Source of the DNA: Azonexus sp.
GTDB taxonomy: Bacteria > Pseudomonadota > Gammaproteobacteria > Burkholderiales > Rhodocyclaceae
Length of the DNA: 64,000 bases
NCBI GenBank assembly: GCA_031260295.1
Contig: JAIRKE010000035.1
Location: 45,166 to 109,165 of the forward strand
Reading direction: 5' to 3'
The position numbers were made by a program, and so were the translations under genes. Numbering within the stretch: position 1 is the stretch's first letter; each line of letters begins with the position of its first letter. Shown piece after piece: positions 32,500-51,908 of this stretch. The notes under the pieces are model-generated. The model saw only the letters and a program-made list of their open reading frames with translations, was not told where the DNA came from and searched no databases.

Positions 32500-34449
32500 T
32501 CAGGCGGCTTCGCGCTCCGCTGCCTCGGCCGGCCGCAACAGTTTGCCGATGCGAGCGACGAGTACATTGAGTTCCTCGATCTGTTGCAACAGCCCCTGCT
32601 CGACGCCGTCCAGCTCGCCGATGCGGTCTTCCAGCGTGTCGGTCGCCTGGTGAATGCGCTTGATGCTTTCCAGACGCCGTTTCAACTGGATCTGGTGCTC
32701 GCGAACCTGTGTTTCCATCGGCGCCATGATCGCCCGCAGCCAGGTTTCGGCATCGCGGTTGGCGTGCTCGAAGGCGCGGCGGACTTGCAACGCCACCTCC
32801 TCGAAGAACTTCTGGGTGATGTTCTTCTTGTCGGTCGTCATCAGGCTGACCATGGTGTTCAGGTGGCCGTCGCACCACGTCTTCAGGCGATCGAGTTCCT
32901 TCTCGTAGCGCAGCAGCGAAAAGGCCGTCGGCGCCCCGAGCTTGAGTCCGTGCTCAACGGCGAATTTCTTGTAGACCGCCTCCATCATCGCCCGGATTTC
33001 GCCGATCTCATGGCTTGAGCGGGTCAGCGCCTCACGCGCCTGACCGAAGAAACGATCCATGGCGGCCGCCAGCGACTTGGAGAAGGTGGCGTCGATCATC
33101 ACGCTACGGGTTTCGTGCGTCAGTTGGCGCAGGGTGTCAATGCCCAGGTGAGCGAACAGCTTGTTGGTCAGCGTCGAGAAGACGCTGCGTACGGCGTAAT
33201 AGCGTTGCAGGCCGGCTTCGAACTCGTCCTTCTCGGCGCGCACCTTGCCCATCATGTATTCGACGACGCCCTTGTTCTTGCCGCGCAACTCGGTCAGTTC
33301 GTTCAGTTGCTCGCGCAGGCCGGTCAGGCGCGCTTCGAGCAGGCTGCGGACGCGCAGGCTGACGTCGCCGAACTCGCTTTCGGTGTTGTCGCAGACGATA
33401 TCGCGCTTGGCCGGAATCAGCTCATCGGACAATGCCGTCTCCAGCCGTGCCAGCCGGCTGCGCTCGAGCAGCGCGGCGTCGCCGGTGATCTTGGCGACCA
33501 GCCCCTTCTGCGCCGACACCGGGAAGACCTGGCTCGGCGGCAAATTGAGCAGACTGGCGCTGGTATCGACCTGACGCTGGATCTCGGCGTCGATCTCCTC
33601 GAGCGTTTTCAGTTCGTCCCACTGCCCGTCGATCTTGTTGAGCACGACCAGGCGGCCGCGTCGGGCGGTGCCGCCAGCGCAAATGTGATCGCGCCAGATG
33701 GTCATGTCCGACTGCGTGACGCCGGTATCAGCGCCGAGGATGAACAGCACCGCATGGGCGTTCGGCAGCAGCGACAGGGTCAGTTCCGGCTCGGCGCCGA
33801 TGGCATTGAGGCCGGGCGTGTCGAGAATGATCAGGCCCTGCTTGAGCAAGGGATGCGGGAAATTGATGATGGCATGACGCCAGCGCGGTATCTCGACCCG
33901 GCCATCGTCGCCGACCCGGTAAAAATCAAGGTCGTCGTCGCCGACCGCGAAACCAAGGCGAGTCGCTTCCTCGGGCATGACCCTGAGCGTCTCGCTGACC
34001 TGGCGCAGCGCATTCTGCATCGCGTCCGGCGCCTCGATGTCGAGATCGATAATCTTCCACTCATCGGGGAAGCGCTTGTATTCGGCGATGCCGGAACTGG
34101 ACGCGCGCGTCTCGATCGGCAGCAGTTCGATGCAGGGCGGCTTGCTGGCGTCGTACAGCAACTCGGTCGGACACATCGTGGTCCGGCCGGCCGACGAGGG
34201 CAGCATCCGGGTGCCGTATTCAGCGAAGAAAACGGCGTTGATCAGCTCCGACTTGCCGCGCGAGAACTCGGCGACGAAGGCGACGTTGAGGCGGTCCTCG
34301 CGCAAGCGCTCGAGCAATTGGGTCAGGCGCAGGTCGGCCTGGGCGTCGGATAGCTCATTCTCGGCAAGCCACTGCCGAAACTCGCCGATATGGGACGACA
34401 GACCGGCGCGCCAAGCGGTATAGGCGGCGAATTGGTTAACTAACGACAT
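32500..34449 (-). CDS. Dynamin-like GTPase
   Basis: A 649-residue large GTPase. G1 is AEFSRGKSELINAVF, G3 ILDTPGLNAIG and G4 VLNKIDGQWDEL, followed by long helical segments (about residues 330-640) with coiled-coil character near the C-terminus. Bacterial dynamins remodel or protect membranes; the specific role here is unknown. The ATG at 34449 follows a GGGCAGGG box; the frame remains open 20 codons upstream without support. It is convergent to the ferredoxin gene. Confidence 0.85.
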   Translation of the reverse strand: MSLVNQFAAYTAWRAGLSSHIGEFRQWLAENELSDAQADLRLTQLLERLREDRLNVAFVAEFSRGKSELINAVFFAEYGTRMLPSSAGRTTMCPTELLYDASKPPCIELLPIETRASSSGIAEYKRFPDEWKIIDLDIEAPDAMQNALRQVSETLRVMPEEATRLGFAVGDDDLDFYRVGDDGRVEIPRWRHAIINFPHPLLKQGLIILDTPGLNAIGAEPELTLSLLPNAHAVLFILGADTGVTQSDMTIWRDHICAGGTARRGRLVVLNKIDGQWDELKTLEEIDAEIQRQVDTSASLLNLPPSQVFPVSAQKGLVAKITGDAALLERSRLARLETALSDELIPAKRDIVCDNTESEFGDVSLRVRSLLEARLTGLREQLNELTELRGKNKGVVEYMMGKVRAEKDEFEAGLQRYYAVRSVFSTLTNKLFAHLGIDTLRQLTHETRSVMIDATFSKSLAAAMDRFFGQAREALTRSSHEIGEIRAMMEAVYKKFAVEHGLKLGAPTAFSLLRYEKELDRLKTWCDGHLNTMVSLMTTDKKNITQKFFEEVALQVRRAFEHANRDAETWLRAIMAPMETQVREHQIQLKRRLESIKRIHQATDTLEDRIGELDGVEQGLLQQIEELNVLVARIGKLLRPAEAAEREAA

Positions 34450-34509
34450 ACCCTGCCCCACGGAAACGGATCGGTTATTCAATCTAGCATAGCGGCCTGC
34501 CGCGAACAA

Positions 34510-37732: not shown

Positions 37733-38574
37733 GTGACTGGACTTATGCCAGCCGCTGGCCGGCCCCGGCCAAGCTCAACCTGTTCCTGCACGTGGTCGGC
37801 CGGCGAGACGACGGCTATCACCTGCTGCAAACCGTCTTTCGTTTCATCGACCGCGCCGACAGACTCTCCTTCGCGCCGCGCACCGACGGCCGTATCGTGC
37901 TCGCCACACCGCTGCCCGGCGTCGCCCCCGAGACCAACCTGACCGTCCGCGCCGCCCGTCTGCTGCAACAGGCCAGCGGCTGCGACCACGGCGTCACCAT
38001 CCACCTCGACAAACTGTTGCCGATGGGCGGCGGCCTCGGCGGTGGCAGTTCCGACGCCGCCACGGTGCTGCTCGCCCTCAACCATTTGTGGCAAACCGGC
38101 CTGTCGCGCGGCGAACTGGAACGGCTCGGCCTGGCGCTGGGCGCCGACGTGCCGGTCTTCATCCACGGCCGCAACAGCTTTGCCGAGGGCGTCGGCGAAA
38201 GCTTCACCGACCTCGACCTGCCGCCGGCCAGTTATCTGGTGCTGCAACCACCGGTCCACGTGCCGACCGCCGCCATCTTCAGTGCGCAGGAATTGCGCCG
38301 CGACACGCCGCCGCTGCGCCCGGCCGATTGGCGTCCCGGCCTCGGCGGCAACGATCTGCAAGCGGTGGCCTGCGCCCGCTTTCCGGCCGTCGCCGAGCAT
38401 CTCGCCTGGCTGCGGCAGTTCGCCCCGCAGGCCATGATGACCGGCTCCGGCGCCTGCCTCTTCGCCGCCTTCGCCAATCGAGCCGAGGCCGAAGCAGTGC
38501 AGCCAGCCTTACCGGCCGGCTGGATCGGCTGGGTCGCCGACGGCCTGGCGACGCATCCCTTGGCCGAAATTTGA
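37729..38574 (+). CDS. ispE: 4-diphosphocytidyl-2-C-methyl-D-erythritol kinase
   Basis: A 281-residue GHMP kinase of the MEP isoprenoid pathway. The substrate motif is PAPAKLNLFLHVVGRRDDGY and the ATP-binding loop PMGGGLGGGSSDAATVL. The ATG at 37729 overlaps the lolB stop. In most relatives tRNA-Gln and prs follow immediately; here a reverse transcriptase locus is inserted between. Confidence 0.96.
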   Translation: MSDWTYASRWPAPAKLNLFLHVVGRRDDGYHLLQTVFRFIDRADRLSFAPRTDGRIVLATPLPGVAPETNLTVRAARLLQQASGCDHGVTIHLDKLLPMGGGLGGGSSDAATVLLALNHLWQTGLSRGELERLGLALGADVPVFIHGRNSFAEGVGESFTDLDLPPASYLVLQPPVHVPTAAIFSAQELRRDTPPLRPADWRPGLGGNDLQAVACARFPAVAEHLAWLRQFAPQAMMTGSGACLFAAFANRAEAEAVQPALPAGWIGWVADGLATHPLAEI

Positions 38575-38637
38575 ACAAGGATCGAGCAGAAGCCCGGCCC
38601 TTCCCGGCCCCGACCTCGTTGGCACTATAATTCGGAC

Positions 38638-38805
38638 GGCCCCGGCGCATTCCAAGCACTTCCGCATGACGGTTCGTCGTCTGTGGGCCGTGGGGCATCC
38701 CCACGGCGATTGTTTTTGGCGTTACCGATGCAGCGCGCGATCCGCACTGCGCGTCTGCGCAGGACTGATCGCGCTCGACCAGCAGGTTGGCGTGCGTCGC
38801 GGGCC
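38638..38805 (+). ncRNA. Candidate retron msr-msd RNA
   Basis: The 250-bp gap between ispE and the reverse transcriptase is full of structure. The flanks pair as a1/a2: 38638-38655 (GGCCCCGGCGCATTCCAA) with 38787-38805 (TTGGCGTGCGTCGCGGGCC), with a few bulges and one internal loop. Directly after a1 comes AGC (38655-38657), the usual context of the branching guanosine. Inside are GACG-GTT-CGTC (38668-38678), a perfect 9-bp hairpin GCCGTGGGG-CAT-CCCCACGGC (38687-38707), and an msd-like arm with an 8-bp stem GCGCGATC/GATCGCGC (38735-38742, 38767-38774) enclosing CTGCGC-GTCT-GCGCAG. A TATAAT lies just upstream at 38624-38633. a2 ends 21 bases before the RT start, as in known retrons. This structure is hand-folded. 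Confidence 0.6.
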
Positions 38806-38826
38806 ACTTTCTATTTTGGCTTGCCC

Positions 38827-40203
38827 ATGTCCCGTCGCTTTTCACACGCCCGATCAATTGCCACCGCGCTGGCCCATGCTCTGCTGGCCGCCGACGTCGA
38901 CCAAGCCCGCGCCCGCTCGCAGGCGGCGCTGACGGAACGCATGAGCGTCTGCCTTGGTATTCCCGCACCAGCGCAGTTGCGCACGTTGGCAATTGCGCTG
39001 GCGCGGCGGTCACTGCCGTTCTGGCGGCGGCACACGGTGCCAACGCTGGCTCGCCATTTGCAAGACATGGCGTCATTTCAAAAACTGCTCGCTGGCGCGC
39101 CGCTGCGCGTCCGGCGCTGGCTGTTGCGTCCGACGGAAATGCGCGACCAGACGTCCGGTTTCATCGTTCCGCTGCCCTTGCCGCAGTGGCCGACACCGGT
39201 CAATCTGGCACGGGGGCTGGGCATTTCGCCGGATGAACTTGACTGGCTCTGCCATCCCGCCCTGGGCTGGCGCGACGACTCGTCCACGCTTGGCGCGCGC
39301 CGCGTCGCGCCGCACTACCGCTGCATCCTCCGGCCCAAGGCAAGCGGCGGCTTGCGCCTGATCGAAGCGCCGCTGCCGTTGCTCAAGCGCGTTCAACGCC
39401 GCTTAGTGGCCGAACTGCTCCAGCATGTGCCCGTCCACGAATGCGTACACGGTTTCGTGCACGGGCGCGATGTCGCCAGCCATGCGCAAACGCACGCCGG
39501 CCAGCCTTTCGTCATGATTTTCGATTTGCGCGACTTTTTCAACAGCATCGGCGCTGGCCGCATTAACGCGCTATGGCGCAGCCTGGGCTACCCGGAAGGC
39601 GTGGCGCGCTGCCTGAGCGCCCTGACCACCACGCGCACGCCAACGTCGGTACTGATGCGGCTGCATGAAGCGGGCGAGACGGATTCCCTGCGTCAGCGCC
39701 GCCTGAGCAGCGCCCACCTGCCGCAAGGCGCGCCGACCTCGCCGGCATTGGCGAATCTCTGCACCTTCGGGCTGGACTTGCGCCTGGCGGGGCTGGCCGA
39801 ACGTTTCGGCGCGCGCTATTCGCGCTATGCGGACGATCTAGTGTTCTCCGGCCCGGCGGCACTGAACCGCCAGTCCCGCGCCCTGCATGCCTGGGTCAGC
39901 GCCATTGCCGCCAGCGAAGGCTTTGCCCTGCATCCAACCAAGACACGCCGTTTGCCGGCGCACCGCCAGCAGTGCATCACCGGGCTAGTCATCAACCAGC
40001 GCCCGAATCTGGCGCGCGACGATTACGACCGCCTGCGCGCCGAACTGCATCAACTCTCGCTCCAAACCGCCGTCGATCCCGCGCTGCGGGCGCATCTGCA
40101 AGGGCGACTAGCCTGGGCTGCCCGCTTCGTATGCGACAGCCGCGCGCGCAAGCTGGCGGGCCTGCTGGGGCGGATCAACTTTGTGCCAGCGCTTTCCGTA
40201 TAG
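38827..40203 (+). CDS. Retron-type reverse transcriptase
   Basis: A 458-residue RNA-directed DNA polymerase. The retron-like region VHGFVHGRD with HAQTH at 219-223 corresponds to the NAxxH motif. Catalytic motif A is FDLRDFF (about 232-238), LPQGAPTSPALANL is at ~298-311, and YADD at 334-337 supplies the catalytic aspartates. ITGLVINQ at 384-391 matches the VTG motif of retron RTs. Unlike compact retron RTs, it has an N-terminal extension of ~150 residues before the RT fold, of unknown function. The ATG at 38827 was chosen because upstream in-frame codons fall within the candidate msr-msd RNA. No effector gene adjoins it. A GC stem without T-run follows the stop (40212-40231). Confidence 0.9.
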   Translation: MSRRFSHARSIATALAHALLAADVDQARARSQAALTERMSVCLGIPAPAQLRTLAIALARRSLPFWRRHTVPTLARHLQDMASFQKLLAGAPLRVRRWLLRPTEMRDQTSGFIVPLPLPQWPTPVNLARGLGISPDELDWLCHPALGWRDDSSTLGARRVAPHYRCILRPKASGGLRLIEAPLPLLKRVQRRLVAELLQHVPVHECVHGFVHGRDVASHAQTHAGQPFVMIFDLRDFFNSIGAGRINALWRSLGYPEGVARCLSALTTTRTPTSVLMRLHEAGETDSLRQRRLSSAHLPQGAPTSPALANLCTFGLDLRLAGLAERFGARYSRYADDLVFSGPAALNRQSRALHAWVSAIAASEGFALHPTKTRRLPAHRQQCITGLVINQRPNLARDDYDRLRAELHQLSLQTAVDPALRAHLQGRLAWAARFVCDSRARKLAGLLGRINFVPALSV

Positions 40204-40270
40204 CGCCACCGCAGGCGCCCCAACGGGTGCCGAGGAAGCTCGCCCCTAACTTGGGACAACTCAGAAAACA

Positions 40271-40343: not shown

Positions 40344-40420
40344 TGGGGAGTCGCCAAGTTGGTCAAGGCACCGGATTTTGATTCCGGCATTCGAAGGTTC
40401 GAATCCTTCTTCCCCAGCCA
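40344..40420 (+). tRNA. tRNA-Gln (UUG anticodon)
   Basis: A 77-base cloverleaf including encoded CCA. The acceptor TGGGGAG pairs with TTCCCCA, the anticodon stem CCGGA/TCCGG encloses the loop TTTTGAT with anticodon TTG, and the T arm contains GGTTCGAATCC. It reads CAA (and CAG by wobble). The location between ispE and prs is conserved in betaproteobacteria. Confidence 0.97.
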
Positions 40421-44174: not shown

Positions 44175-46475
44175 ATGATTGATATCTCGAAAGCATTTTC
44201 GCCAACTAGCGAACCGATCTCTGGTTTTTTTCAACAGCCTGGTGCCGCTTACTACATTCCCCTATATCAACGTGAATACAGCTGGGAAGCGGAAAACGTG
44301 GAGCAACTCATGGAGGATGTTTTCAATGGGGTGAAATCACTCATTGAAGACTCTCCAGAAATTCGAGAACGGGCAATTCATTTCATGGGAACAGTTATTC
44401 TTTTTCAGGAATCAAGCCCTAAACAAAATATTCAGCCACGAGACGATCGGGCTTTACCTACCAGGATAGATAACGTAATTGATGGGCAGCAACGTATTTC
44501 CACCATTGCACTGCTGGCCTGCGTGCTATTGCAGCGGCTCCTAAATCTCAGAAGTGGATTACCTGGAGATGCAAAATTCGACTCCCTGCGGACAGAAATT
44601 GATTCCAAACGCGATCTTTTATTAGAGCTATTTTCTGTTGATATCAAGCGAGGGAGCCCGAGCCGAAAACCCATCATCGTTCGTGGCTCAGTTGATGGAT
44701 GGACGTTTGACGGAACAGACGAGGACAACTACAAGTCTGGCGTCGCAAGCTATATTGCCTCAACAATTCGTGCATACACGAACAATTCTCTCGGAAAACT
44801 AGCAAAACCAAATGACAAAAGGGTTGCGAGAAATGTTCGTGAAATAGAGAAGTGGCTAAAAAAAATTGAAGAAACGGGCCCTAGTGACGACAACGACTAC
44901 CCACGAGCAAAACAAATACTAGAAACAATTCCTGAAGAATCTCTTTGGACGTATCCAAGACCAGAGCTACGAGATCATGTGCCGGAACCAACCGGAGAAT
45001 TTGACAAGGTAGCCAAAGTAGTATCTAGCCTAGTGCAACTATTCGCATTCATTCACTATTTTGCCGAGCGGTGTTGCTTTACAGTAATTAAGCCCGTATC
45101 TGAAGAATGGGCATTTGATATGTTTCAGTCGCTTAACGCCTCAGGAACCCCACTTACTGCAATTGAGACGTTTAAGCCACTAGTGGTTAATTACTTAGCG
45201 CAAGAAGGAAAAATATTCAAAGATACAAAATCAAATGAATATTTCAGCAAGGTAGACCAGTTAATCGGGGATACCGGGCCAGCTGCAAAAAAGAACAAAC
45301 TTACGGACGAATTTTTGACAATTTTTGCTCTCACCCATGACGGACATACTCTGTCGACGCAATTCAGTCTTCAAAGGCGTTATCTCAATGATCGGCTTCG
45401 AGCAGCCGATACCCCAGCAGCACGGGAAGACTTCGTTCGGCAAATGGGGGAGCTGGCAACTTACTGGGATTCCGTTATCGGGTTTGAACCAAATAATTTG
45501 CTGGCAATCGCCGGATTGGAGGACTTAACACAAGAGTCCAAGTCGGCCTCAGGCTTTTGCGTCCTCTTCCTTCGTGACTCAGGCCACAAGATGGCCAACT
45601 CGGTTTTGAGTCGATTTTATGGGAGGCTGCTTAGGGAAAAAAGCCAACAGGCTGCTATAGACTTCGTGGAAGCATGCAAGGCTGTCACGGCATTTTATTT
45701 TCTGTGGCGAGCTGCGAAAACTAATTCTGGCCTGGATGACGTATATCGAAAATTACTCCGCGCAGGAGATGAAGATAACGGAATCCCTCCGTTATGTGCG
45801 CTCAAGGGGCAGGACTCTATTAACATAGAAAATCTTCAGAAATATTTCCGCTTGGCACTAGACGATCTCGCTGACCGCACCCAATGGCTAACTAGGGCCA
45901 CTCAGAATCTTCGTTACGATTTTGCCAAGCCGATGTGTAAATGCGCACTGTTTCTGAGCGCACACGACACTATTCCTGATAGCGACTCTCCTGGATTAAT
46001 GAAACTAGGAACACCAGGCACTCACCCGATGATAGACCCTCGCATGTGGAACTCCCCGGACTTTAAGTCTATCGAGCACATCGCACCGGGAAAGGGGCAG
46101 GGTAACTGGGATGATTCGTTATATGAGAGTGAACGTTTTCAAGCGATAGGAAATTTGACGCTGCTACCTGGAGAGGTGAACAGTTCCGCAGGGAATAGCC
46201 CTTGGGTTGTAAAGTCTATTTATTATCGCCACCTAGCAGAGAAGGATCCAGAAAAGCTTGTCGGGCTCGCACAAGAGGCAGAGAAAATTGGGGTGGTATT
46301 ACAAGCACACACTTTGGATCTGCTCAAAAATTCATCCTATTCCCACCATATGGAGTCAATCGTCAGAGTACCAACAGACGGCAAATGGGACAAAGACTTA
46401 GTTGAGCTCCGCAGCAGAAGAATATGTGAGCTCTCTTGGTCTCGAGTAGCCTCTTGGCTAGGGCTGCCAGCATAG
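44175..46475 (+). CDS. sspE: DUF262/DUF1524 nuclease, SspE-like effector
   Basis: A 766-residue restriction protein. The N-terminal DUF262 domain has IPLYQREYSW (28-37) and the nucleotide-binding VIDGQQRIST (101-110), both typical of SspE/GmrSD-type proteins. The C-terminal DUF1524 carries an HNH-like SIEHIAPGKG with histidine 635, followed by IGNLTLLPGEVNSSAGN. In the Ssp system this protein senses phosphorothioate in host DNA, hydrolyses nucleotides and nicks unmodified phage DNA. The assignment to Ssp relies on the facing DUF4007/ATPase/PAPS-reductase operon. The gene is markedly AT-rich compared with that operon and the core genome. Alternative: a stand-alone GmrSD-type enzyme. Confidence 0.82.
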   Translation: MIDISKAFSPTSEPISGFFQQPGAAYYIPLYQREYSWEAENVEQLMEDVFNGVKSLIEDSPEIRERAIHFMGTVILFQESSPKQNIQPRDDRALPTRIDNVIDGQQRISTIALLACVLLQRLLNLRSGLPGDAKFDSLRTEIDSKRDLLLELFSVDIKRGSPSRKPIIVRGSVDGWTFDGTDEDNYKSGVASYIASTIRAYTNNSLGKLAKPNDKRVARNVREIEKWLKKIEETGPSDDNDYPRAKQILETIPEESLWTYPRPELRDHVPEPTGEFDKVAKVVSSLVQLFAFIHYFAERCCFTVIKPVSEEWAFDMFQSLNASGTPLTAIETFKPLVVNYLAQEGKIFKDTKSNEYFSKVDQLIGDTGPAAKKNKLTDEFLTIFALTHDGHTLSTQFSLQRRYLNDRLRAADTPAAREDFVRQMGELATYWDSVIGFEPNNLLAIAGLEDLTQESKSASGFCVLFLRDSGHKMANSVLSRFYGRLLREKSQQAAIDFVEACKAVTAFYFLWRAAKTNSGLDDVYRKLLRAGDEDNGIPPLCALKGQDSINIENLQKYFRLALDDLADRTQWLTRATQNLRYDFAKPMCKCALFLSAHDTIPDSDSPGLMKLGTPGTHPMIDPRMWNSPDFKSIEHIAPGKGQGNWDDSLYESERFQAIGNLTLLPGEVNSSAGNSPWVVKSIYYRHLAEKDPEKLVGLAQEAEKIGVVLQAHTLDLLKNSSYSHHMESIVRVPTDGKWDKDLVELRSRRICELSWSRVASWLGLPA

Positions 46476-46498
46476 ATAGTGCGATGGAGGAACTACGC

Positions 46499-47335
46499 TT
46501 ATTTGTGGCAGACCACGCATGCTCCATTGCCTTCTTCACATCCATAAAGGTCGTCTAGATCAGGTGGCAGCTCGGGTCTAAGCGGATTCACCGGGCGACG
46601 ACGCTCTTCCCGAGCTTTTCGCTCCTCATAGTCGCGGACGATCTGCCCGATCCGTTCAGGGTTTTCCAACGACGCCAAAGGCTCCCCCTTTGTCCAAGTG
46701 AACGGGGAACCATGCTCCAAGGCATCTTTCTCATAGGTCTTCGCCGCCTCAAACTCCTCGGGGTGTCGCTCACGCAACCTGACCCATTCGATCTTCTGTT
46801 GGAAGAAGCAGAACGTGCAGCCGCTCCTGCTTCTCCACTCATAGTATTCGGGCCAGCCCACACCTGAGGCCATAAGTATTTCCGAGACGCCCGGTTTGTC
46901 CACTCCGTTCTCGCGAAACGGGAGCCTAACCTTCAAATTAGGATGCTTCGACGTATATCCCTCTCGATAGTCCTCGTCCGCCCTAATGGCCACATAGGAC
47001 GTCACAAGGTCACCAGCCACAAGCATCGGCTTAACCCAACGCTCGAACGGCAAAAGTTTCAACTGCCGCGTACACCAGCGCGTTTGGGGGGACGGAAGAA
47101 AATGGTTGTATTCGCGGAGCCAAAAATCGAAGTCTCTGTCGGGGTTAAGCCTTGCGATGGGCTTCCCAAGGAAGCCCTCAAGCCTTCCCAGGAAATCGTA
47201 GACCTCGGGAAGTTCCTTGCCCGTGTCGGTGAAGTAATACTCGATGTCCAGATCGGCGCGCGTCTGTCGCATATACACGGCGAGGGCCGCACTGTCTTTG
47301 CCACCGGAGATTCCGAGAACGTGTCGTTCCGCCAC
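46499..47335 (-). CDS. sspD: PAPS reductase-family protein, SspD-like (ATP pyrophosphatase)
   Basis: A 278-residue protein of the PAPS reductase/DndC superfamily. The PP-loop is ISGGKDSAAL (residues 9-18), which activates substrate with ATP. Cysteines in TRWCTRQLK, SGCTFCFFQQ and the C-terminal GCEEGNGACVVCHK could hold an iron-sulfur cluster or carry sulfur. In phosphorothioation systems this component adenylates the DNA backbone for sulfur insertion. It starts at GTG four bases after the SspC-like stop, so translation is coupled. A CysD/CysH role in sulfate assimilation is unlikely because of the neighbours. Confidence 0.85.
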   Translation of the reverse strand: MAERHVLGISGGKDSAALAVYMRQTRADLDIEYYFTDTGKELPEVYDFLGRLEGFLGKPIARLNPDRDFDFWLREYNHFLPSPQTRWCTRQLKLLPFERWVKPMLVAGDLVTSYVAIRADEDYREGYTSKHPNLKVRLPFRENGVDKPGVSEILMASGVGWPEYYEWRSRSGCTFCFFQQKIEWVRLRERHPEEFEAAKTYEKDALEHGSPFTWTKGEPLASLENPERIGQIVRDYEERKAREERRRPVNPLRPELPPDLDDLYGCEEGNGACVVCHK

Positions 47336-47339
47336 GGTC

Positions 47340-50300
47340 TTAATCTTCCTCTTCGGCCAGGGCCAGTCCCGCCTTGGCTAAGGCCGCAAGCAGGAGTTCC
47401 TGCCTCAATCCCTTTGATGACAAGCCATCCAGAATCGAAGCCGCCAGTTCATCCACAGTAATCTTGTCACGCTCCGGAACATCGAACGAGCGCATTACCG
47501 CCTTCGCTGCCCCTCCCGACCCAACGACAACAGCGAATGCCTCACGGGTCGGCTCGCGTCCCTTCACGGCCGCCAAAGCCTCGACCTGTCTAAATTTGGT
47601 GGCCCACGAGGCAACCTCGATCAAAGCCGCGTCGATGTCGCTGTCTGACCACATCCTCGGCGGCTTGTTCGCCGCAAGGCTGAGAATCCCCTCCATGCTG
47701 GCCAGCGAGCCGTCATATCCAACGAGCCGCGCCGCAAAGGCATTGAGCCTGAAATCCCCGGAAATACCCTCGACGATCCCTGCCCTATGGCGCAGCCCCT
47801 CGAAATCCCCAGGGGTCGCGTCGAGTTCGGAGAGCATGCGGGACTCCATGGATTCAATCAATCCATGGTAGGCCCCCGCAAGTTCCAGCAACGGCGGTTC
47901 GAGCGCGGATAAATACGCCACAACCGAGGAAGCCCCCAGCGTCGCAGGAAGATCGACGAACAGAACACGGTGTGGGTCGTTGGCCCTGAGCAAGATATCC
48001 CTGACCGAAACTGCCTCGCCTGAAAGAGTCCTAGTGCGTCGTACCCACTCGGGAAGACCGAAGACCAACCCCACCAGCCCACGAGCCGCATCAAGCGGAT
48101 CGGACGAAGACCTGTCGCGCCCCGCCCTTTGCAAGATATCCGCTATCCCGGCCAAGACCCCCGTTTTTTCGTCATCCACGGAGACCCGTCGCAGGGAGAA
48201 TCTGGTTTCGTCCTGCAAACACTCGTCCATATTGGCATCCGTCATCTTCGGTAGGAACATGCCATCCTTGTAGACTGCGACGGTTTCCTTTCTCGACAGG
48301 GCATAGGCTGCGAGCAGTACCGGGAAGCAACCTTTCCGAACCCCAAATGGCTCGGAACGCCAGAGGGCATAGATATCCTCGACCTCGACCCTCTCCTCAC
48401 CATCACCGAACAGGCCGTCGGCAGCCTTCCATAACGGAAAGAAGTTCTCGGGATCGGATCCCTCGGGGGCGACAAAACGCCAGTTGCCTTGCTCATCCTT
48501 CCCGTGCAACCCCGTCATGCGCAGCATAGTCTCGTGTAGGCCGCGCTCCGCAGGCCAACCTTCGAGTCCAAGGTTCTCCTCTCCCTCGGCATCCAGCATT
48601 CTGTGCAGCAGATCCTTCCGAGCCTTCACCGCATTTGGCGAAAGGGCATCACGGTTCACCAGTTCGCTGAATATTCGAGGCGCGGAATAGAACACGGCAT
48701 CCGCGCGGTCCGAGGCTAGTGGAGAAAGTCTCGTCCCCTTCACCCATTCCCCCTCGACCAACCACGATGCGCCATCCATGGCCTCCCGCATCTCGTCCTC
48801 AAGGGCCGAGCGGACCGATACCACACGCGCTGCAATCTCGCGCCGCGCCACCGAATCCCCGACAAGCTGGTGGTCTCCTTCGGATACGTGACGCAGGGCG
48901 GCGAGTTCCGCCCCAAGCTCGACGATTCTGCCGTGGTTGGAGGCGACGCCTAAAATAGTCGTGGCCCTGCAATCCTCTGAAAGCCTTCTGATCCGCCGTT
49001 TCGCCTTTTCCGGTGTCTCATTCCTTCCCGGCAGATACAGCAGGAATTTGCCGAACCCACCTGATGGGGAATCCTCGCCGACCTCGGCTTCTAGGGATTC
49101 CGAATCGGCGATGGCCACGTCCATCCACCGTAGCGTTCCCGTGTCGTGGTAGTGCCGTTTCGCCACAACGGGGTGAAGCCCTGCCATTTCCGTGAGTTCC
49201 CCGAGTCCGATGCCCACGCCTTCCGAACGCGCCTTGGACACGGCCGCATCGATGTCGAAGTCGCTGCCTTCGAACACTCCCCACGATCCCGTGTGTTTCC
49301 TGAAAATGGCGGTTCGCCAAGAGGAAAGGTCGGACAGCGCCCGCTCTATCTCGGCTGTCTCAACGTCGGGGTACAGTGCTCCGATGACCTCAGGATCGGC
49401 AGCGAGCCCAGAGCCATTCCTGAAAAGGTCGATGATTGCTATGTTCTTGATCAGGGCGCTCCGTAGCGCGTCGCCCCGTGCCTCGACACGCTCCACCGCA
49501 TCAACCGCCTGTGCCCAGCGGTGGCCGTCCGGTGAGGCGAGGATGGCGGGCTCAAGGTTCGACCTCAGGAAATCCCAGTAATCACCGGGGCGATACCAAG
49601 CCCGCCCCGTCGAATCGGCAGTCTCAAGAAACGTGGTGAATCCATAGGGCTCCAAGGATGAAAGGAATCCGAAGGTACTGCGCTCGTTCTGTCCGAACTG
49701 ACGCTTTGAGATGGGTCCGAGAAGCGCCGCCATCGCAGGGTGAAGGGGCCAACATGAATCCAAACTCGCCCCGAAAGACTTACCCGCACCGGGCCTCCGC
49801 CCCCTGATTGATTCCGCAACCGTCTCCGATGCTTTCCCGGTCCATTTGTGGGGAAGCTTGGTCTCAACCGCCTTCGCCACGAGTTCGACGACCTCGTCGC
49901 TCGACGCAACCAACGGGATATCCACGAACCTTCCCTGCACCTTCGCCCAATCGTCCTTAGCCTCGGAGCCCAGGCGCGACGCATACTGCCTGAACGCCTG
50001 ATGGAGGATGCCCACCACGACGAACGGTGCCTCGCAACGCGCCGCCCTCTCAGCAAGATCCTGGAAGAAATGGACGTCGTCACCGCCTAAAGCGGATGCC
50101 TCAAGGAACTTGCCCATTTCGTCGATTATCAGAAGCAAGCCATCGGCAAGACCGGATTCCGCGAACCTCGAAAGCGCGGAGATCAAACCCCGTCCATCCA
50201 CCTTCCTCGAATCAACGACCTCCAACCCGACTGCTTCGTTCAAGGCCCTGGCAATCTCAGCAACCACACCGGAACGCCGCCCCGACACCGCCACGACCCT

Positions 50301-50642
50301 CCACCCCTTTGCAACGGGGAAAGCCTTGTCAAATGCGGGCAACACAGATGGGGCCAGACGACTTCTGGCCTTGGACCTCAGAGTGGCATCCTCCTGCAGA
50401 GCCGACGCAAAGGCGACCGCAAGCGACGACTTCCCACCGCCGAATGGGCCTGTCCAAGTGAAAGCCCTTTGAGAGCTTCCCGACACTTGGCGGGCCATGT
50501 TCTCGATGACTGATTTCGCGGTGCCGTGGCAGACGTAACCATCTAAGGCGTCTTGGCGCCCGAAATCCGTGTCCAGACGGATCGACCGCCGATAATGTTG
50601 GGCGATACTGATATGCTGAAGAAGTTTTTCTCGCCCGCTCAT
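47340..50642 (-). CDS. sspC: Large P-loop ATPase, SspC-like
   Basis: A 1100-residue ATPase. Walker A is GPFGGGKSS (residues 65-73) and Walker B is LLLIIDEMGKFL (169-180), near the N-terminus; the remaining ~850 residues are mostly helical without domains I can name. The ATG overlaps the SspB-like stop by four bases. In Ssp loci the ATPase is the third modification protein, thought to power DNA handling during single-strand phosphorothioation. Its size and N-terminal ATPase also recall BREX/DISARM-type helper ATPases, but the DUF4007 and PAPS-reductase partners favour Ssp. Confidence 0.8.
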   Translation of the reverse strand: MSGREKLLQHISIAQHYRRSIRLDTDFGRQDALDGYVCHGTAKSVIENMARQVSGSSQRAFTWTGPFGGGKSSLAVAFASALQEDATLRSKARSRLAPSVLPAFDKAFPVAKGWRVVAVSGRRSGVVAEIARALNEAVGLEVVDSRKVDGRGLISALSRFAESGLADGLLLIIDEMGKFLEASALGGDDVHFFQDLAERAARCEAPFVVVGILHQAFRQYASRLGSEAKDDWAKVQGRFVDIPLVASSDEVVELVAKAVETKLPHKWTGKASETVAESIRGRRPGAGKSFGASLDSCWPLHPAMAALLGPISKRQFGQNERSTFGFLSSLEPYGFTTFLETADSTGRAWYRPGDYWDFLRSNLEPAILASPDGHRWAQAVDAVERVEARGDALRSALIKNIAIIDLFRNGSGLAADPEVIGALYPDVETAEIERALSDLSSWRTAIFRKHTGSWGVFEGSDFDIDAAVSKARSEGVGIGLGELTEMAGLHPVVAKRHYHDTGTLRWMDVAIADSESLEAEVGEDSPSGGFGKFLLYLPGRNETPEKAKRRIRRLSEDCRATTILGVASNHGRIVELGAELAALRHVSEGDHQLVGDSVARREIAARVVSVRSALEDEMREAMDGASWLVEGEWVKGTRLSPLASDRADAVFYSAPRIFSELVNRDALSPNAVKARKDLLHRMLDAEGEENLGLEGWPAERGLHETMLRMTGLHGKDEQGNWRFVAPEGSDPENFFPLWKAADGLFGDGEERVEVEDIYALWRSEPFGVRKGCFPVLLAAYALSRKETVAVYKDGMFLPKMTDANMDECLQDETRFSLRRVSVDDEKTGVLAGIADILQRAGRDRSSSDPLDAARGLVGLVFGLPEWVRRTRTLSGEAVSVRDILLRANDPHRVLFVDLPATLGASSVVAYLSALEPPLLELAGAYHGLIESMESRMLSELDATPGDFEGLRHRAGIVEGISGDFRLNAFAARLVGYDGSLASMEGILSLAANKPPRMWSDSDIDAALIEVASWATKFRQVEALAAVKGREPTREAFAVVVGSGGAAKAVMRSFDVPERDKITVDELAASILDGLSSKGLRQELLLAALAKAGLALAEEED

Positions 50643-51589
50643 TTATAGGCCTCCTTCAACAGCCGCTCGACAAGGTACTTTCCCGCTTTGGCATCCACTT
50701 CGCGCCGCATTACCTGCCTGATACCCGAGGAGTCCATCCAAAAGAGAACACCTCCAGTTCTGGCCTCAAGGCCCATGAGCCGTTCCGCCAAAGAGTTCTC
50801 GTCCATCTTGAACACTCTCCCCGGTGAACCGGGGCCGTGGGCGAGCGTCTCGAAGGCCAAAGAGCTCTCTCCTGTCAAACCTGCTCTCCAATAGTCCAGG
50901 ACGGCCAAGTCGAAAATCCCGTCGGGCAGCGACGCCTTCGGCCCGCGCCTGAACGAAAAAACACCCCGCCCCTCGTCTAGGATCAATCCGAGTTCTGCAA
51001 GCATCGGCTCTGCCATGTCCTCCACACATGCATCAGGTTTGGGGCAATATCCCCGCAGACACGTCTCGATATCCCTACGCAGCGTTGCCTCGGATACCTT
51101 GAGGCTCTTGCGGACGGTGTATGCCAAAAGCTGCTGTTGAACCTCTTCCCTAGTGAAGGTCGGGGAGAGCACATTGTTGAAAATCCACCACCATGTTGTG
51201 GAACGGTGTTTACCTACGGGAACCCCCGCCAAGCGCCAATGGGCAAACCAAGGCGTTGCAGGGTGCTCGCAGAACGAATCCAAGGCCTCTTCGCGGTCGG
51301 AGAGTATCTGCGTCCAGAGGTCGTTGATGCGGAACGAGGACCTATCGTCGCCATCCTCCTCGAAAACCCCGCAGGCTAACGCCCAATGCTTGATCGAGGC
51401 CACCATGTTCTTTCCCACACCGAAGAACGCTATGGCGCTCTCATCTGTGAAGGTGGACTTGGGCACACCCGTACCGCCCCTCGCTTCGAAGGCCTTTTTG
51501 AGCCACATCTGCCGAAGGGGGAACGTCTCGTGTCCCGAGAAGTGTGGCGTGTAGTCTTGTCCTTCTAACATGTTTTGCATGACCGGCAT
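50639..51589 (-). CDS. sspB: DUF4007 protein, SspB-like
   Basis: A 316-residue protein with the DUF4007 signature: PHFSGHETFPLRQMWLKKAF near the start and AFFGVGKNMVASIKHWALAC after it. In the characterised Ssp system the DUF4007 protein SspB has DNA-nicking activity required for single-strand phosphorothioation. The start at 51589 (MPVMQNML) is chosen because GGGGAGGAG lies about 10 bases before it; a TTG at 51616 and later ATGs at 51580 and 51571 are alternatives. It is the first gene of sspB-sspC-sspD. No cysteine desulfurase (SspA) gene precedes it. Confidence 0.85.
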   Translation of the reverse strand: MPVMQNMLEGQDYTPHFSGHETFPLRQMWLKKAFEARGGTGVPKSTFTDESAIAFFGVGKNMVASIKHWALACGVFEEDGDDRSSFRINDLWTQILSDREEALDSFCEHPATPWFAHWRLAGVPVGKHRSTTWWWIFNNVLSPTFTREEVQQQLLAYTVRKSLKVSEATLRRDIETCLRGYCPKPDACVEDMAEPMLAELGLILDEGRGVFSFRRGPKASLPDGIFDLAVLDYWRAGLTGESSLAFETLAHGPGSPGRVFKMDENSLAERLMGLEARTGGVLFWMDSSGIRQVMRREVDAKAGKYLVERLLKEAYK

Positions 51590-51908
51590 CTTACTGGAGC
51601 TCCTCCCCAGGAGCAATGAAATCGCGACTGGAGGACATTGCCAGCAAGAGTCAGATATTTCTACTCCCGACAGCAGATGGGCAAAAAATACTGAATTTAT
51701 ACACAGTATGGATTTTTCATTTCGTCTGATCTTTCAATTTCTGACTAACTTTGACCTGGCGGCGGCTGCCGTTCATTTCCATTCACTCGCCCTGAAGGAA
51801 GGAGTTGGAAACAAAGTAATCACGCGAACTTAATGGGGTATTCATTGAAGAAATACCCCGTTTTAAGGCTATGATTACCCCATTTAGGCAGCCTGAACCG
51901 ACATTCCC
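51590..51908 (+). promoter_or_regulatory. Intergenic region with fic promoter and GGGGTA repeats
   Basis: No convincing gene lies in these 320 bases. Three related half-sites cluster before the fic gene: AATGGGGTA (51833/51834-51841), AATACCCC (51853-51860) and TTACCCCATT (51876-51885). The first two form an 8-bp hairpin followed by GTTTT, and the last overlaps a TATGAT -10-like hexamer (51871-51876), with TTGAAG at 51846-51851 as possible -35 at a 19-bp spacing. This looks like an autoregulatory operator. The sspB-like promoter must lie in the left part of the region but was not pinpointed. Confidence 0.5.

Follow-up and report, generated by a model that had tools for sequence, protein, structure and literature searches.

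The current view of retrons is that of three-part defence systems in which a toxin is held in check, and each of the typed retrons (I–XIII) consists of a reverse transcriptase (RT) with a given effector. In the part of Nakamura et al. (2025; PMC12548924) on which we draw, retrons are said typically to include a toxic effector, and retrons other than those considered here to act in defence; the same part mentions Bth1, which has no obvious effector, and Sda1, which is without the one usual for its type, so an effector-less retron is not unheard of. Mobility genes, too, appear to be absent from retrons (Simon et al., 2019; PMC6868368, as excerpted). Four retrons treated in the excerpted text of the latter paper, Mx162, Sa163, Mx65 and Ne144, share with our locus an N-terminal extension of the RT, paired a1 and a2 arms and a G next to a1, and Mx65 is also like it in lacking the N of the NAxxH motif.

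Among solved structures, the RT of Ec86 (Eco1) is the best match to ours by sequence and by fold (25% identity). The Ec86 chain, of about 320 aa, has no N-terminal domain and comes with an effector (according to the title of 7v9x), whereas the retron described here has such a domain and no effector that we could find. Its nearest relatives by sequence model are those of the PADLOC profiles RT_other and RT_outgroup. In the literature that we examined, neither an effector nor an msDNA is reported for this clade; we found no study of any of its members among open-licence papers, and the open-licence papers on Mxa1, type XIII and Mx65 added nothing about it. We consider it highly probable that the Azonexus locus is a genuine retron of this N-terminally extended clade, complete and solitary, working by the mechanism proposed below.

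Layout of the unit and its RNA

In the window (the whole stretch of 64,000 nucleotides that was analysed), ispE ends at 38574 and is followed by the inserted retron unit, a tRNA-Gln gene (40344–40420) and prs. The unit is made up of a putative promoter, an msr-msd RNA and an RT gene within a 1689-bp insert after ispE (Table 1). A first-pass annotation had proposed that a retron splits the order ispE–tRNA-Gln–prs at this point, and comparison with congeners bears this out: their empty sites leave a gap of only 80–101 bp between ispE and the tRNA gene. The open frame of the RT runs from 38683 to 40203, and the start that agrees with relatives is an internal ATG; the RNA ends within 21 bases of it, just as that annotation had it. 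An AAT six bases ahead of a1, part of the putative promoter in the window, was also seen by eye in most aligned relatives.

Table 1. Features of the Azonexus retron unit and of the Ssp genes downstream (positions in the window)
Feature	Position	Strand	Evidence
Inserted segment (about 1689 bp), from ispE stop to conserved GAAAAC...tRNA-Gln leader	38575..40263	+	Comparison with empty sites of congeners; junctions by eye
TATAAT, −10-like box (putative promoter)	38626..38631	+	Sequence, by eye; six bases 5' of first a1 base
msr-msd ncRNA, 168 bases	38638..38805	+	Fold, covariation, covariance model R1 (146.1 bits; window among the model's rows)
a1 arm, CCAA at its end	38638..38655	+	Pairing with a2; helices 1 and 2 of covariation count
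Predicted priming guanosine, AAGC context	38656..38656	+	Position by analogy with validated retrons (PMC6868368, as excerpted)
msr stem-loop SL1, variable among relatives	38662..38686	+	Fold
msr stem-loop SL2, GGGG-NNN-CCCC core	38687..38707	+	Helix 3: 100% of cells paired, 3/9 pairs changed on both sides
msd-like stem-loop SL3, G+C-rich tip	38735..38774	+	Helices 4 and 5: 9/11 pairs changed on both sides
a2 arm, TTGG at its start	38787..38805	+	Fold, pairing with a1, covariation
Retron-type RT, 458 aa	38827..40203	+	Pfam RVT_1, PADLOC RT_other, predicted model, dN/dS
N-terminal all-helical domain, aa 1–108	38827..39150	+	Predicted model; no match found among solved structures
Region X motif HAQTH, aa 219–223	39481..39495	+	Family alignment
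Catalytic motif YADD, aa 334–337	39826..39837	+	Family alignment
ITG (VTG-type) motif, aa 384–386	39976..39984	+	Family alignment
SspE	44175..46475	+	PADLOC 5.3e-288
SspD, SspC, SspB	46499..51616	-	Best PADLOC 7.7e-136, 0 and 1.4e-100, respectively

The region 38630–38830, which holds the RNA, has a folding energy of −97.9 kcal/mol, against a mean of −81.7 kcal/mol for shuffled sequences (z −3.65; 0 of 200 shuffles as low), and the ends of the 168-base RNA pair as a1 and a2, in agreement with the earlier claim. The msd-like stem was likewise recovered, but what had been described as one two-part hairpin is better read as SL1, SL2, a linker and SL3, all enclosed by a1/a2. A core like that of SL2 is present in most folds of the relatives' RNAs. 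The G next to a1 lies in an AAGC context (38654–38657), and 17 of 19 RNAs, as aligned, have CAAG where a1 meets this G, the others being CAAA (L111) and CATG (L106).

These 19 RNAs (that of the window, two from congeners and 16 from named loci, aligned from sequence alone) gave an RNAalifold structure of 32 pairs, 19 of them changed on both sides. Changes on both sides affect 5 of 5 outer and 2 of 3 inner a1/a2 pairs; in the two helices of SL3 they affect 9 of the 11 pairs. Overall, 94.0% of cells were paired and the covariation score was 0.362, and none of 500 shuffles attained any of five measures (column make-up, though not kinship, is kept in this control, and the structure derives from the same 19 rows); structures slid by 1–3 columns scored 0.049–0.111. 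A lack of covariation in the a1/a2 and msd stems had been named beforehand as a result that would speak against a retron, and these stems do covary.

A covariance model built from the RNAs (R1) matched 70 of 76 loci of named relatives at E 1e-3 or better, including 54 of the 60 outside its building set (four further named loci, copies of genomes already included, had been excluded beforehand). At 58 of the 70, the match lay within −60 to 200 nt of the chosen RT start. The other 12 comprised five at 209–441 nt, four that overlap the RT start by 77–123 nt, L124 (where no RT was called), L155 at 463 nt and L163 at 1256 nt. Weaker matches below threshold were found at L127, L135, L140 and L156 (E 0.0034–0.053), and at L139 and L157 there was no match up to E 1; Rfam yielded no retron match. 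When arms were swapped between loci, own a1/a2 pairs averaged −21.0 and swapped pairs −10.3 kcal/mol (0 of 20000 permutations; 32 loci kept of 75 having arms, out of 82), a contrast inflated by the choice of arms for strong own pairing. The own a2 ranked first for 18 of the 32 loci, and 8th for the window with its arms trimmed. Under stricter filters, five of 76 genomes of the genus matched R1, each next to an RT, so that no orphan RNA copies were seen; these filters omitted G014 and G047, which have weak R1 matches. In Singulisphaera (L163, 4300–5740) the RNA (47.5 bits) lies 1.26 kb upstream of the RT, and the stretch between them ends in a sequence resembling, by eye, the C-terminus of a TnpB-type protein; RNA and RT may there have been split by a mobile element.

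The reverse transcriptase and its N-terminal domain

The RT matches Pfam RVT_1 (E 1.6e-18) and, in PADLOC, RT_other (9.7e-114), RT_outgroup (1.2e-108) and RT_XIII (2.9e-82). The first two of these matches extend over nearly the whole RT, the N-terminal domain included, and the two groups share a clade with it in the tree. Four relatives from Myxococcota, Planctomycetota and Actinomycetota score 516–562 bits against RT_other, compared with 379 bits for the window RT, which on these scores is a divergent betaproteobacterial member of the group. Among NCBIfam models the retron St85 family comes first (1.7e-50), under its own cut-off (172 against 235 bits), and among solved structures searched by sequence the Ec86 RT leads (2.1e-24). 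The predicted model (pLDDT 92.4, pTM 0.85, from a 61-row alignment) retrieved retron RTs at ranks 1–18 of a fold search, group II RTs from rank 19 and a DGR RT at rank 38. In a tree of 61 RTs (from a short search, with long branches among other retrons), 29 family rows grouped together as a clade (SH-aLRT 99), and the 10 group II rows were all split from the retron RTs (SH-aLRT 100).

It is scarcely credible, given this and the RNA, that the locus instead encodes a non-retron RT accompanied by a structured RNA, be it a DRT-type defence RT, a group II intron remnant or a DGR. Its region X is divergent, and there are weak matches to the NCBIfam models of group II RTs (1.3e-9) and Drt2 (2.9e-9), as such a reading would have it. 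Against it stand the best retron model of the same library, better than that for group II by about 40 orders of magnitude, the PADLOC match to RT_other, the tree, and the a1/a2 helix with its covariation and adjacent G. A group II intron RT is rejected by HMM scores, fold rank and tree, and a DGR RT only indirectly, through its fold rank. Clustering with group II intron or DGR RTs was the other outcome that the first-pass annotation had held to be damaging; the RT groups with those of retrons and apart from those of group II introns, and the retron reading is supported by RT models, tree and covarying RNA alike.

Type XIII membership was also rejected, RT_XIII scoring 275 bits against 379 for RT_other. 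An RT assigned by PADLOC to type XIII (509.7 bits), L180, falls outside the window's clade; it occurs in the Corallococcus genome that also holds a family member, L153. L180 has a long msd-like hairpin and looks like Mx162 in length, RNA shape and host, the three traits on which the likeness is based. Some match to the L153 RT, whatever the kind of retron, is present in 33 of 59 genomes of the family of its host.

The motifs YADD, HAQTH and ITG are all present, as the annotation had it. It had pointed to the departure of the last two from the classical forms; the departures are real, but they are usual in the clade and not peculiar to Azonexus. Among 61 family rows (window included), region X reads NAxxH in only four, the first letter being otherwise H, F, A, G or Y; the catalytic motif is YADD in 58 and YVDD in three; and at the VTG place there are 30 VTG, six ITG (one of them in the window), four LTG and 21 others (seven LAG, five VAG, three VCN and six single forms, alignment errors being possible). 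HAQTH keeps the xAxxH form of retrons, with H in place of N. In the excerpted text of PMC6868368, the N is found in 14 of 16 validated retrons and substituted in Ec48 and Mx65; it is usual, not universal, and we have therefore not taken it as defining. Judged by the alignment, HAQTH and ITG are ordinary for their clade. The dN/dS of the whole RT was 0.21–0.24 in three pairwise comparisons among congeners, which indicates purifying selection along the whole protein. RT frames seem broken in L115 (Paraburkholderia), with a stop within the matched stretch, and in L148 (a Variovorax MAG), where the frame is open only from the middle.

Residues 1–108 form a helical bundle in the predicted model (pLDDT 88.8), and a fold search with this domain against solved structures gave two matches, both above E 6. 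An N-terminal extension, which like the lack of an effector had gone unmentioned in the first-pass annotation, is present in all 61 family rows, with 93–155 aa up to the same column. In 51 aligned rows no column is invariant, and only M1 and P92 are nearly so; the dN/dS of the domain between congeners was 0.23–0.29 (three pairwise comparisons). L016 and L017, two 371-aa proteins that by eye resemble helix-turn-helix proteins, show weak similarity to the RT, confined to its N-terminal part (E 2.4e-4 and 4.5e-4) and possibly due to composition.

Sites, age and movement

Family members (at least 44% identity over 340 aa or more) occur in seven of 76 genomes of the genus, the close copies being those of the window, G032 (86%) and G067 (80%). 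Each of the three sits at a different site. Thirty loci were read for the spacing of ispE and the tRNA gene: 12 on the plus strand have gaps of 80–101 bp, 10 on the minus strand have gaps of that size given as negative values (−82 to −93), three have another insert of about 760 bp, and five, the window's own included, show no ispE in the stretch. One of the 12, L064, belongs to a genome with this retron at another site; in G032, whose retron is not between these genes, the gap is 85 bp. At L068, L071 and L089, from three other genomes of the genus, we noticed by eye a rhodanese-like gene between ispE and tRNA-Gln, an interval that has therefore accepted another insert. The G067 retron lies between metG and mrp, the start codons of which are there 1832 bp apart; metG and mrp are 140 bp apart in the window's genome, 141 bp in L215 and 162 bp in L220, and of 27 distinct readable loci (30 fetched) 10 have 115–227 bp and 17 have 920–960 bp. 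For the G032 retron, only the left flank found a match in the window's genome. Read by eye, the junctions showed neither a target duplication nor a terminal repeat.

Synonymous divergence from G032 is 0.342 for the RT, 0.36 for prs and 0.347 for ispE, and from G067 it is 0.62 for the RT and 0.635 for prs. The RT having diverged to the same extent as these host genes, the age of the three copies is about that of the host split. This suggests that the unit is a long-standing resident that has relocated; alternatively, it may have been exchanged repeatedly within the group. On a wider scale, the window RT and its two congeners lie in the tree among rows from Comamonadaceae and Burkholderiaceae (SH-aLRT 97 for the seven-row set), and four other RTs of the host's family, one of them of its genus, branch elsewhere, suggesting transfer into this part of the genus. 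Carriage by phages or plasmids was not supported by our searches. Viral contigs gave six loci at 26–36% identity, of which PADLOC types L175 as XI and L176 as I-C and leaves the other four untyped; 16 phage records were found, none covering 80% of the query; and there were 137 plasmid records, all below 60% identity and three covering 80%; the best three listed are Burkholderia replicons of 0.9–1.3 Mb.

Partner genes and possible function

Homology of the window to G032 extends over 38618–40210, and to G067 over 38614–40183, in both cases from the putative promoter to about the RT stop. No effector was found in the unit, and in two neighbour searches (86 and 81 loci) no neighbour family kept a fixed place in unrelated loci. 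In the first, where longer shadow frames displaced the RT at 17 of the 86 loci, a family of ABC-type appearance (judged by eye) occurred in 11 loci, from −5.4 to +2.3 kb and on either strand. The second ran without the filter responsible, and most of the 14 clusters listed from it were collinear Burkholderia neighbourhoods. The largest of the 14, with 11 loci, includes L110 and L116 as well, where it lies on the opposite side of the RT; another, of 10 loci, keeps neither place nor strand, and one of eight, from Acidovorax, Rhodobacteraceae and one Burkholderia, is found on both sides of the RT. Neither an effector gene nor a fused domain specific to any of types I–XIII was found in the unit, and none recurs in relatives; we therefore assign the locus to none of these types.

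A retron that once had an effector and lost it, with RT and RNA now decaying, would account for such a bare unit, as retrons typically have a toxic effector (PMC12548924, as excerpted) and broken or shortened frames occur among relatives (L115, L148 and L111). We think this very improbable, however: the whole RT is under purifying selection, the RNA is intact, and no recurring partner was seen throughout the clade, the Azonexus locus being no exception.

For a complete, solitary retron we propose the following. Transcription would start at a1, the TATAAT box lying six bases before it, and continue through msr-msd into the RT gene. The RNA would then fold, its a1/a2 helix presenting G38656; the RT would bind its own RNA, prime on the 2'-OH of that G and, with the SL3 side as template, make a short, branched, single-stranded DNA of probably 60–80 nt, and host RNase H would trim the template. 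As no partner gene was found, the output would have to come from the RT–RNA–DNA complex itself, from the N-terminal helical domain or from a host factor acting in trans.

About 4 kb downstream of the retron, at 44175–51616, are phosphorothioation-type defence genes (Table 1), separated from it by genes that we take to be prs, a ribosomal protein L25-like gene, pth and ychF. On the other side, 32500–34509 encodes a protein of the dynamin family (Dynamin_N of Pfam at 2.8e-14; in PADLOC, weak matches to LeoBC at 9.6e-12). Anti-phage defence in a one-protein format is our likeliest guess at the role of the retron, one made tentatively, because other retrons defend (PMC12548924, as excerpted) and SspB–SspE are so near; the Ssp neighbourhood, at one locus, is a weak sign.

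The N-terminal helical domain might itself serve as the effector, fused to the RT in the manner of the one-gene types I-C, XI and XII ('single gene' in PADLOC), which would make this a single-protein toxin or defence retron. Its presence in all 61 rows, its confidently predicted fold and the purifying selection on it would fit, as would the lack of a partner gene and the Ssp genes nearby. With no invariant column in 51 rows, however, no catalytic residue is visible, the domain has no fold match in solved structures, and it may merely bind RNA or the RT; we judge this reading somewhat unlikely. Bolder, and unlikelier still, is the thought that the clade may be an ancient, cross-phylum, minimal class of retron with no effector gene, in which the N-terminal bundle or the msDNA complex is the output, and of which the 1.6-kb unit relocates within genomes without a mobility gene, possibly by means of its own RT, while being inherited with its host.

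The Azonexus locus adds a member to a known but little-studied group of retrons. A clade with a conserved RNA and an extra domain, spread across several phyla and with no toxin gene found, allows a test of whether a retron can act without one, and the three congeneric copies, as old as their hosts, at different sites and with the empty site known for two, offer a clean setting for the study of how retrons move without mobility genes.
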